NCBI RefSeq assembly: GCF_008000995.1
Contig: NZ_CP042828.1
Span: 3,710,882-3,774,881, forward strand
Direction of reading: 5' to 3'
Origin: Ruania zhangjianzhongii
GTDB taxonomy: Bacteria; Actinomycetota; Actinomycetes; Actinomycetales; Beutenbergiaceae
Length of the DNA: 64,000 nucleotides
A program made the translations under genes and the position numbers. Below are positions 40,166 through 43,461 of this stretch, in pieces. Under the pieces are notes generated by a model. The model saw only the letters and a program-made list of their open reading frames with translations, had not been told where the DNA came from and ran no database searches. Each line of letters begins with the position of its first letter. The first letter of the stretch is position 1.

Positions 40166-40347
40166 ACGGGACCAGGAGCTGCGCAGTCGCCGCACCGCGA
40201 GTTCGTCACCGTCGTCCCAAGGTGTGCCAGCTCAACCAGCAACGTCCCGGCACTGGAAGGCGGCGAACCCGGTCACCAGCAGCGCGTGAGGCGGGCGATC
40301 CAGATCTGGCTGGAAGCTCGACGAAACGCACGTCCTGACCGCTCCGG

Positions 40348-40421
40348 TGCCCCCACTGGGACTCGAACCCAGACTGAACCGATTTTAAGTCGGCTGCCTC
40401 TGCCGGTTGGGCTATAGGGGC
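40348..40421 (-). tRNA. tRNA with anticodon UAA (Leu), class-I shape with short variable loop
   Basis: The minus strand folds into a full cloverleaf of 74 bases: acceptor stem GCCCCTA/TGGGGGC with discriminator A, D arm GCC...GGC, anticodon stem GCCGA/TCGGT with loop CTTAAAA (anticodon UAA), variable loop of only about five bases (TCAGT) and T arm CTGGG-TTCGAGT-CCCAG. Bacterial tRNA-Leu is normally class II with a long variable arm, so this is a tRNA with leucine anticodon but class-I body. CCA is not encoded. No overlap with a coding frame. Confidence 0.9.
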
Positions 40422-40591
40422 GGCTGCTCTGGGCATCCTACGGGCAGCTGACCTACCAGTTGGAGACACGCGTCTGCAGCACGATGCGGTACCTGCAGGT
40501 CCTTTCCGTGTGCGTCAGATACCACCGCGAACTACAGACCGTCATGCGGCGACGCGGAGCGCATGGCGCCCCGGTCACCGGTCCGAGCGCG

Positions 40592-41989
40592 CTACTTGCC
40601 CACCGGCTCCTTGTTCGCCCGGTCCGCCCGGTCCGCGGCTGCGGCAGTGAAAGCCTCACGCGGGCTCTGCAGCGACCCGAGGGCCACCATCTCCCGGTTG
40701 AAGATCAGCGCAGTGGTCCAGTCCAGCAGGATGCGGGCCTTGCGGTTGAAGCTCGGCATGGCCCACATGTGATAGGTCCGGTGCATGAACCAGGCGAGCG
40801 GGCCACGGAACTTGATCCCCTGGATCTGCGCGACCCCCTTGTACAGCCCGAGCGAGGCGACCGTGCCCATGTTCTTGTGCGAGTAGTCGGTGACCGCCTC
40901 ACCACCGAGGTGCCGGACGATATTGTCGCCCAGATGCCGGGCCTGACGCACCGCATGCTGCGCCGTCGGGCCGCAGTAGACGTCCGGCTCGCCGGTGGAG
41001 ATGTCCGGGACACCGGCGCAGTCCCCTGCGGCCCAGGCTCCCTCGACCACGGAGCCTTCGTCATCGACCACCTGCAAAGTGGGCAGGGTGCGCACCCGGC
41101 CCTGCTTGTCGATCGGCAGGTCAGAGGCGGCGATCACCGGGTTGGCCTTCACCCCAGCGGTCCAGACCAGGGTGTCCGAGTCGAACTCGTCCCCGTCGGA
41201 GCAGACCATGTGCCCGTCCTCGGCAGAGTTCAGGAACGTGTTCAGCTTGATCTCGATACCGCGGCGGCGCAGCTGTTCGAGCGCGTAGCCGCCGAGCTCG
41301 TCGCCCACCTCGGGCAGGATCCGGCGGGTGCCCTCGATGAGCACGAACCGCAGGTCCTCGGGGCGGATGGAGTCGAAGTCCTTGCAGGCGGCGCGCGCCA
41401 TGTCCTCGATCTCGCCGATCGCCTCGATTCCGGCGAAGCCGCCACCCACGAAGGTGAAGGTGAGCATCCGGCGCCGTGCCTCCGGGTCCCAGGTGGAGGC
41501 GGCCACATCCATCTTGTTCAGCACCTGGTTCCGCAGGGCGATCGCTTCTTCGATCTGCTTGAACCCGATGCCATTCTCAGCCAGGCCCGGGATCGGCAGC
41601 ACGCGCGCGACCGCGCCGAGGGCGACCACCACGTGGTCGTAGGAGACGTCGTAGGACTCCCCTTCCACCGGAGTGATCGTGGCCTTGCGAGCGCCGTGGT
41701 TCAGGTCGGTCACCCGCCCGGAGAGCACCGTGGACCCGCGGAGCAGCCGGCGGTGCGGGGCGACCACGTGCCGCGGCTCGATCGACCCGGCAGCCGCCTC
41801 AGGCAGGAATGGCTGATAGGTCATGTAGGAGCGGGGATCCACCACCACGATCGCCGCTTCGCGCCGGCCCATCCGCTTGCGGATCTGCAGTGCGGTGAAC
41901 AACCCGACATAGCCTCCGCCCAGAACCAGGATCCGGGGGACCTTACGGGCCCGGCCGGTGCGGGCACTGAGGGTAGGTGCTTCGCTCAT
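40592..41989 (-). CDS. ndh: Type II NADH dehydrogenase (NDH-2)
   Basis: A 465-residue membrane-attached flavoprotein that passes electrons from NADH to quinone without pumping protons. FAD-binding Rossmann motif ILVLGGGYVGLFTAL at about 20; NADH-binding second Rossmann motif FTFVGGGFAGIEAIGE at about 176; FAD closure WAAGDCAGVPD. The C-terminal region with amphipathic residues (ARILLDWTTALIFNREMV) anchors it to the membrane. It could feed electrons to menaquinol used by the nitrate reductase. Gene appears monocistronic. Confidence 0.93.
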   Translation of the reverse strand: MSEAPTLSARTGRARKVPRILVLGGGYVGLFTALQIRKRMGRREAAIVVVDPRSYMTYQPFLPEAAAGSIEPRHVVAPHRRLLRGSTVLSGRVTDLNHGARKATITPVEGESYDVSYDHVVVALGAVARVLPIPGLAENGIGFKQIEEAIALRNQVLNKMDVAASTWDPEARRRMLTFTFVGGGFAGIEAIGEIEDMARAACKDFDSIRPEDLRFVLIEGTRRILPEVGDELGGYALEQLRRRGIEIKLNTFLNSAEDGHMVCSDGDEFDSDTLVWTAGVKANPVIAASDLPIDKQGRVRTLPTLQVVDDEGSVVEGAWAAGDCAGVPDISTGEPDVYCGPTAQHAVRQARHLGDNIVRHLGGEAVTDYSHKNMGTVASLGLYKGVAQIQGIKFRGPLAWFMHRTYHMWAMPSFNRKARILLDWTTALIFNREMVALGSLQSPREAFTAAAADRADRANKEPVGK

Positions 41990-42133: not shown

Positions 42134-42982
42134 TCAGACGTCCCGCGCCCGGGTGAGAACGCCGTCGAGCATCTCCTCGGTGAGCCGGCCGGTGAAGGTG
42201 TTCTGCTGGGAGACGTGGTAACAGCCGAACACGTGCACCGGCGCACGTCCCCCACCGCGGCGCTCGGGTGGGAACACCAGCGCCTCTGCCCCGTGACCGA
42301 ACTTCGGCAGCGGCCGTGGCACCGTCCAGCCGAGCCGGCGCAGTGCGGCGAACGTGGCCTGCCAGCCGATCCCGCCCAGAGCGAGGATCGCCGTCACCGT
42401 GGGGGTAAGCAGCTCGATCTCCCGGTCCAGCCAGCCGGCGCAGGTGTGCCGCTCGTCGGGGCTGGGGGCGTTGTCCGGCGGCGCGCAGCGCACAGCGGCG
42501 ACCATCCGGGCATCGGTGAGGGCCAGCCCGTCCGCGGCGTCCACGCTGAGCGGCTGGTTCGCATAGCCGGCGCGGTGCAGCGCGGCGAAGATCCAGTCCC
42601 CGGACCGGTCGCCGGTGAACACCCGCCCGGTGCGATTCGCCCCGTGCGCGGCCGGGGCCAGGCCCACGAGAAGCAGCCGAGCCTTCGGGTCTCCAAAGCC
42701 CGGTGCCGGCCTGCCCCAATACGGTTGGTCGGCGAACGCACGCCGACGGCGGTGGGCCACCTCCTCGCGCCACGCCACCAGCCGCGGGCAGGCCTGGCAG
42801 ACGCTCGAGCGGGCATCGAGCACCTCGAGGCTGCGGGCGGAGGCGGCCAGGCGCTTGACCTGGTCGCCGTTCTGGGCACGGGTGGTCCGCGGTGCTGCCG
42901 GATCACCGGGCCAACCGGTGCCGGGCGGCACCGGGGACGGGTAGAGGTCACCGGTGCGCGGGTGTGGCAGCTGCTCGCTCAC
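42134..42982 (-). CDS. Family 5 uracil-DNA glycosylase (UdgB)
   Basis: A 282-residue DNA repair enzyme removing uracil and other deaminated bases. Motif GLAPAAHGANRTG (about 107-119) is the family 5 signature, and HVSQQNTFTGRLT near the C-terminus is the second active-site motif. Four cysteines, Cys62, Cys65, Cys166 and Cys181, are placed as ligands of the family's 4Fe-4S cluster. GTG start overlaps the stop of the YbaK-like gene (GTGA). Confidence 0.92.
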   Translation of the reverse strand: MSEQLPHPRTGDLYPSPVPPGTGWPGDPAAPRTTRAQNGDQVKRLAASARSLEVLDARSSVCQACPRLVAWREEVAHRRRRAFADQPYWGRPAPGFGDPKARLLLVGLAPAAHGANRTGRVFTGDRSGDWIFAALHRAGYANQPLSVDAADGLALTDARMVAAVRCAPPDNAPSPDERHTCAGWLDREIELLTPTVTAILALGGIGWQATFAALRRLGWTVPRPLPKFGHGAEALVFPPERRGGGRAPVHVFGCYHVSQQNTFTGRLTEEMLDGVLTRARDV

Positions 42983-43461
42983 GACGGCGCAGGGTCAGTC
43001 ACGTCCGCCACCTCCGCGTGCAGGTGGTCGGTCAGGGCGTCCCCGTCGACCGTGGCGGCAATGCCGTGCCCGCCGGCCCCGATCGAGACCCGGCGGCCAC
43101 GGATCCGCTCGTCGGCGACCACCGGCCACGCCTGGGTAGCGCCGAACGGGGTGATGGTGCCGCGCTCGTACCCGGTGACGTCCTTCGCCGTGGCGGCATC
43201 GGGCATGGAGAGCCGGTTCACCCCGAGCAGCGTGCGCAGCTTCGGCCAGGAGATCGCCCGGTCCCCGGGAACCAGCACGAACAGGTAGTCGCCCTTGCCG
43301 CGGCGCACCACCATCGTCTTCACGATGTCGCCGGGGTCCACACCGCGGGCGGAGGCTGCCTCGGCCAGCGAGCGCACCGGGCCGTGCCGGGTGACCTCGT
43401 GTGCCAGGCCGGAGGCGGCCAGCGCCTCAGTGGCGGGGGTACCGGGTGCGTCGTCGGTCAT
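42979..43461 (-). CDS. YbaK/EbsC-type aminoacyl-tRNA deacylase
   Basis: A 160-residue single-domain protein of the YbaK/ProX group, which hydrolyse mischarged tRNAs such as Cys-tRNA-Pro. Marks are VKTMVVRRGKGDYLFVLVPGD with the conserved Lys, the GVNRLSMPDA region and TPFGATQAWPVVADERI. Substrate preference cannot be read. It is the first gene of a pair with udgB. Confidence 0.88.
   Translation of the reverse strand: MTDDAPGTPATEALAASGLAHEVTRHGPVRSLAEAASARGVDPGDIVKTMVVRRGKGDYLFVLVPGDRAISWPKLRTLLGVNRLSMPDAATAKDVTGYERGTITPFGATQAWPVVADERIRGRRVSIGAGGHGIAATVDGDALTDHLHAEVADVTDPAPS

Follow-up and report, generated by a model that had tools for sequence, protein, structure and literature searches.

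A class I tRNA-Leu(UAA) lacking the long variable arm is the probable reader of the rare UUA codon in Ruania zhangjianzhongii

In teaching, tRNA-Leu is marked out by its long variable arm. A 2023 review describes tRNA-Leu as long-armed everywhere except in animal mitochondria, where tRNA-Leu(UUR) is charged through A73 and A14; it lists A73, A15-U48, G18G19 and A20a, and not the long arm, as essential for leucylation in E. coli, and states, citing Larkin 2002, that minimal laboratory variants of E. coli tRNA-Leu without anticodon arm and long arm are still leucylated (PMC9976931). Among bacterial class II tRNA-Leu(UAA), bldA of Streptomyces is described as a developmental switch (PMC4932002). 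The nearest printed case of a short form is a tRNA-Leu(TAG) with a short variable loop in the tRNA gene clusters of two Mycobacterium species, M. mucogenicum and M. phocaicum, which is a cluster-borne copy beside a normal class II tRNA-Leu(TAG) (PMC6582537). In another actinobacterial case, tRNA-ProX of Streptomyces and Kitasatospora, body and anticodon seemingly disagree and proline identity is kept under Ala, Asn or Thr anticodons (PMC11415595). Tools flag a leucine anticodon without a long arm as a conflict, as in a human example (PMC8450103). The literature searched, outside subscription papers and tRNA databases, does not mention a class I tRNA-Leu(UAA) from bacteria, a form with which specialists may be familiar; nor did it confirm the statement, in an earlier note on this DNA, that short tRNA-Leu(UAA)-like genes had been reported from some actinobacteria.

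The stretch of DNA analysed here (the window, 64,000 nt) contains one tRNA gene, which ARAGORN places at 40346-40421 of the minus strand and calls tRNA-Leu(taa), and which matches Rfam RF00005 over the interval given in Table 1 with 57.2 bits (gathering 29, E 8.2e-11), a middling score among the tRNAs of the genome. The two programs agree on what the earlier note had read from the letters, a leucine anticodon on a class I body, and the variable loop of about five bases that it described is UCAGU, short of the ten or more bases of a class II arm. Read by script, the remaining parts are the acceptor stem GCCCCUA/UGGGGGC followed by A73, U8 A9 and the T loop UUCGAGU; the bases 3' of A73 are CCG, so that CCA is incompletely encoded. 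The covariance score bears out the fold as a full-length cloverleaf of 74 bases, but to call it perfect, as had been done, is slightly too strong, since 6-67 is a U-G pair and the D stem, with C13-A22 mismatched, has only three pairs (Rfam alignment and parts comparison). Folded as an unmodified sequence, the tRNA has a minimum free energy structure other than the cloverleaf (-30.4 kcal/mol, z -2.31), and 5 of 200 shuffles fold equally well; a family consensus, built after the comparison of relatives described below, has one match in the window and none in 100 shuffles. A consensus scan of the tRNA locus found no sigma-70 consensus promoter, and a scan for a terminator there found none.

Table 1. 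Features at the tRNA-Leu(UAA) locus, numbered from the first base of the window.
Feature	Position	Strand	Source	Remarks
tRNA-Leu(UAA), class I body	40348..40421	minus	ARAGORN, Rfam	74 bases; CCA not fully encoded
Anticodon UAA	40385..40387	minus	ARAGORN	in loop CUUAAAA; gene position 35
Variable region UCAGU	40373..40377	minus	parts read by script	five bases, ending in U48 (pairs with A15)
D arm GCCCAACCGGCAGAGGC	40396..40412	minus		A14, A15, G18G19, C20, A20a, G21; C12-G23; mismatch C13-A22
Discriminator base A73	40348..40348	minus		
-10-like hexamer TAGGAT	40435..40440	minus	by eye	13 bases before the tRNA gene
NDH-2-like FAD/NAD oxidoreductase gene (Pyr_redox_2)	40592..41989	minus	Pfam PF07992	same-strand upstream neighbour

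The 5.1-Mb genome has 45 tRNA genes of the Rfam tRNA family, all of which were read with ARAGORN. Its other four leucine tRNAs (CAA, CAG, GAG and TAG) are all class II, and the contrast that the earlier note drew with class II tRNA-Leu thus stands. It had also taken the short gene to be an extra tRNA, a view it would have given up for want of any other tRNA-Leu(UAA), and had proposed looking for a second one of class II. No second UAA tRNA of either class exists among the 45, and so the idea of an extra copy falls. As expected of a tRNA of the bldA type, the gene encodes the sole tRNA for UUA among these 45. We propose that it is a working leucine tRNA of class I, charged by LeuRS without a long arm and serving as the only dedicated UUA reader of its genome, and place the probability of this at roughly 0.88; in Ruania zhangjianzhongii it would accordingly be transcribed, leucylated and used in decoding.

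That bacterial tRNA-Leu needs the long arm for LeuRS, as had been supposed, finds no support in the E. coli results that the review summarises, and the tRNA keeps every base listed there together with a leucine anticodon. In our model LeuRS would recognise it through A73, A15-U48, G18G19 and A20a-G21, presented in a D loop of the eleven-base leucine type, and would be expected to charge it from these bases, the long variable arm being dispensable. Among the 45 tRNAs of the genome, none but tRNA-Leu(UAA) and the four tRNA-Leu of class II has the 20-A20a-G21 segment of the D loop; A15-U48 is present in several of the 45. Among 111 distinct class I sequences that we compared (106 with UAA and 5 with CAA anticodons), A14A15, C12-G23 and C13-A22 occur in all, and U48 and A73 in 110 each, a conservation that is partly by construction because bases of the D arm and variable region were preset in the retrieval patterns; of the 23 distinct sequences that similarity alone retrieved, 23 have A15-U48 and 22 have A73. 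Many stem pairs change on both sides across the 106 distinct UAA sequences.

These features set the tRNA beside the described systems in different ways. With class II tRNA-Leu(UAA), bldA included, it shares the anticodon, A73, A15-U48, G18G19, A20a-G21 and the leucine-type D loop, and like bldA it belongs to a GC-rich actinobacterium in which its codon is rare, a likeness of sequence and codon; it differs in the absent arm and in having C12-G23 and C13-A22, whereas among 13 class II tRNA-Leu G12-C23 (9) and G13-A22 (11) predominate. Animal mitochondrial tRNA-Leu(UUR) likewise does without the arm but is organellar, whereas the tRNA here comes from a bacterium and has the full cloverleaf, its D- and T-loop bases being standard, and the resemblance is functional only. 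The minimal E. coli tRNA-Leu was engineered, while here the arm is naturally absent. The Mycobacterium tRNA-Leu(TAG) also has a short variable loop, with a different anticodon.

A similarity search of the genome and 58 relatives gave 30 loci including its own, a count that excludes weaker matches in other relatives. Class I UAA tRNAs are found at 28 of the 29 relatives' loci, and the same body with a CAA anticodon at the remaining one (L073); all seven congeners have the same anticodon and class. The oxidoreductase gene of Table 1, which from its family we take to be NDH-2, lies upstream on the same strand at 19 of the 29 (tblastn), and TAGGAT or TAAGAT stands 7-13 bases before the tRNA gene in 8/8 loci of the genus, our own included (by eye). 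Farther upstream, 2.6 kb from the tRNA on the same minus strand, is an aminoacyl-tRNA editing-domain gene (PF04073, window 42979-43461), whose product is presumably YbaK-like. At two loci from different families (L047 and L067) a near-identical stretch with an inverted repeat lies just downstream of the tRNA and is perhaps an integration remnant.

The earlier note had supposed UUA to be rare, and a count over 328 roughly called open reading frames, some of them likely spurious, gives 17 TTA among 122,046 codons. Conserved genes are almost free of it, again as for a bldA-type codon: there are no conserved TTA sites in comparison with E. coli, and among 18,302 codons aligned with a relative of smaller genome (G364) there is one, opposite Leu, which is too rare for a test. 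Within the window, a protein kinase-like gene (PF00069, 23403-25256) has one TTA codon and would therefore depend on tRNA-Leu(UAA). So rare a codon might be avoided or be read by near-cognate tRNAs, with the tRNA gene a pseudogene or an unexpressed relic; its near absence from conserved genes, the lack of a promoter consensus at the locus and the middling Rfam score would all suit such a relic, which we nonetheless judge very unlikely. Neither decayed stems nor loss in relatives is seen, the stem pairs co-vary across the 106 distinct UAA sequences, the location and the -10-like hexamer are conserved, and in G364, where TTA makes up 9.27 per 1000 codons of long open reading frames, the sole UAA tRNA is of class I.

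What UUA means could be asked in G364 itself (1.34 Mb; 48.6% GC as measured over 400 kb), whose 37 tRNAs include a leucine set of GAG and TAG in class II and TAA and CAA in class I. Over 540 kb we read TTA as an unknown residue and scored the residues aligned with it by likelihood. Opposite E. coli, TTA aligns with Leu at 27 of 69 sites, the next residue being Met with 7, and Leu exceeds Met by 18.4 in ln-likelihood; opposite the Ruania genome it aligns with Leu at 94 of 166 sites, with a lead over Met of 74.1. A smaller run gave Leu at 14/40 sites. The share of Leu against E. coli is below that of TTG (88/159) and CTT (239/462). In a Corynebacterium (G572; 400 kb, 57% GC), where a class I UAA tRNA was the only one matched, by pattern and not from a full tRNA set, TTA stands opposite Leu at 24/46, 30/68 and 46/94 sites in three comparisons, with Leu ahead by 11.8, 4.2 and 37.0; the lead over Met against the Ruania genome is only the 4.2, and for the control codon CTA Met is ahead of Leu by 0.8 (n=26). 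UUA thus appears, as judged from these alignments, still to mean leucine in relatives that carry the class I UAA tRNA. The earlier note left the amino acid open; the codon evidence from G364 and G572 points to leucine, while for charging itself leucine is what we infer.

A non-leucine identity was considered and judged unlikely on account of these alignments. On such a view the gene would be an extra tRNA of hybrid identity that inserts a non-leucine residue at UUA, in a programmed mistranslation comparable to that of Streptomyces tRNA-ProX. The tRNA body is of class I and resembles certain class I tRNAs (Met, Lys and Asn) about as much as it does class II tRNA-Leu, the editing-domain gene is not far away, and UUA is very rare in the genome, all of which could be read in favour of such a tRNA. 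With a sole UAA tRNA, however, UUA would be reassigned and not ambiguous; in both relatives it reads as leucine; the leucine D-loop segment is absent from every non-leucine tRNA of the genome; and the tRNA is widely inherited, with no mismatch seen between its anticodon and a second identity. Whereas tRNA-ProX keeps proline determinants under foreign anticodons, here leucine determinants and a leucine anticodon go together, and no proline tRNA is found among the best fourteen closest bodies listed. We consider hybrid identity extremely unlikely and retain that of an ordinary leucine tRNA.

Two complete LeuRS genes, each of its own type, are present in the genome (G000:C2:4895472-4897853, L332:7389-9857, and G000:C2:2109984-2112812, L333). 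One of the enzymes, of about 978 residues, resembles those of G080 and G441, and the other, of 823 residues, is 54% identical to the sole LeuRS of G364. Both G441, with one LeuRS of the long type, and G364, with one of the short type, have a class I UAA tRNA, so that neither type is required, and the notion of a special LeuRS for the class I tRNA was rejected, the Ruania genome itself having both. The short LeuRS gene adjoins a gene of glycosyl-hydrolase family 116. That the second LeuRS serves self-resistance would be a guess.

For a wider survey we used a pattern running from T loop to D loop that measures the variable region by its spacing, so that most class assignments below are by spacing and not by folding of each gene. 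In the class Actinomycetes 183 of 246 genomes were matched and 63 had no match; among 143 listed of the 183, a hand count gives 134 with class I spacing (our own included) and 8 with class II, and one (G354, C44:28572-28613) has a UAA match in which the variable region measures about eight bases. The 40 matched genomes outside these 143 include the 25 Streptomyces-like ones (f21). Within the order of Ruania, 24 of 26 sampled genomes are class I by match length, again including our own, and two have no match. A sample of the phylum (108 genomes, 91 matched) has, among the matches listed, class I UAA tRNAs in at least 23 genomes and class II in at least 46, the latter spacing being seen in two Streptomyces-like genomes (f21). 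Class I CAA tRNAs occur in at least 8 of the 108, at least 4 of these with a class II UAA tRNA and one (G151) with a class I UAA tRNA; examples of the class I CAA form are L155 (of G364), L073, L074, L075 and L101. A search for the class I UAA pattern, in which the class is fixed by construction, returned at least 119 loci, and ARAGORN called 79 of the 80 listed as tRNA-Leu(taa) of 74-77 bases, the other lying at a locus end. Named holders among the matches listed include Mycobacterium, Mycolicibacterium, Nocardia, Gordonia, Rhodococcus, Corynebacterium, Amycolatopsis, Pseudonocardia, Saccharopolyspora, Arthrobacter, Kocuria, Microbacterium and Brachybacterium. A relaxed pattern on 25 unmatched genomes gave one class II-like match (G349) and one without tRNA features (G360) and left 23 unmatched; two of the 23 (G095 and G331) do carry a class I UAA tRNA by other searches. 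Some genomes thus escape the patterns, and the numbers from the survey should be taken as minima.

Much of the class Actinomycetes would have inherited the short form instead of a class II tRNA-Leu(UAA), with a few lineages carrying it as tRNA-Leu(CAA). A few records labelled Planctomycetota, Rokubacteria or Deltaproteobacteria also have the class I UAA pattern, with other acceptor stems; a record labelled Acidobacteria (L242) has an actinobacterial acceptor stem and may be mislabelled. By spacing, the phylum of the Rokubacteria-labelled genome has class I in 9 of 79 genomes, class II in 12 and no match in 58, and that of the Planctomycetota-labelled genome has class I in 8/79, two of them with class II as well; G712 and G727 from the latter phylum have both classes of UAA tRNA. 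We lean towards a broader reading, in which class I UUR tRNA-Leu is a standing bacterial kind of several phyla, the arm having been lost or gained, or the change having spread from phylum to phylum, several times, and the rule of a class II tRNA-Leu everywhere but in animal mitochondria being wrong. It takes in the usual UUA reader of most sampled Actinomycetes outside the Streptomyces-like group, with U34 or C34 and with either type of LeuRS, and rests also on the counts from these two phyla.

The origin of the short body was addressed with trees. When all 71 columns are used, a split supported at 0.94 unites class I UUR with class II tRNA-Leu, a single intruder being an E. coli Arg tRNA, and the class I clade (110 of the 111) takes in four class II tRNA-Leu(UAA) with support of 0.87-0.89. 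This grouping depends on the leucine-identity columns; once they are removed, class II tRNA-Leu as a whole and the class I sequences come apart. It is plausible from such comparisons that the arm was lost from a class II ancestor. A class II tRNA-Leu(UAA) of an actinobacterial genome (L092) already has C12-G23 and looks like a step between the classes, and the UAA match of G354 is possibly another intermediate. The same function might alternatively have arisen when a tRNA already of class I, such as one of the Asn, Lys or Met type, gained the leucine D loop and a UAA anticodon, which would fit the grouping lost with the identity columns and the C12-G23 and C13-A22 always found in class I, set against the mostly different pairs of class II. 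Against such a capture are the 0.94 split, the near-complete class I clade with its four class II members, the C12-G23 of L092, and the class II tRNA-Leu(CAA) of the Ruania genome, which falls in with the class I group when the columns are reduced in three of the ways tried; we regard capture as a tentative second choice.

The best reading is that of an unexpected class with an ordinary function, a real and conserved bacterial leucine tRNA without the long arm, for which charging by LeuRS is expected. In a large group of bacteria, UUA seems to be read by a leucine tRNA with a short arm. Should charging be confirmed, this would be a natural version of an experiment only suggested by the E. coli minimal tRNAs, and would bear on discrimination among LeuRS, SerRS and TyrRS, on the design of orthogonal tRNAs and on isotype calls made automatically. 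Relatives of class I and class II also provide testable pairs for a change of tRNA class at constant codon meaning.
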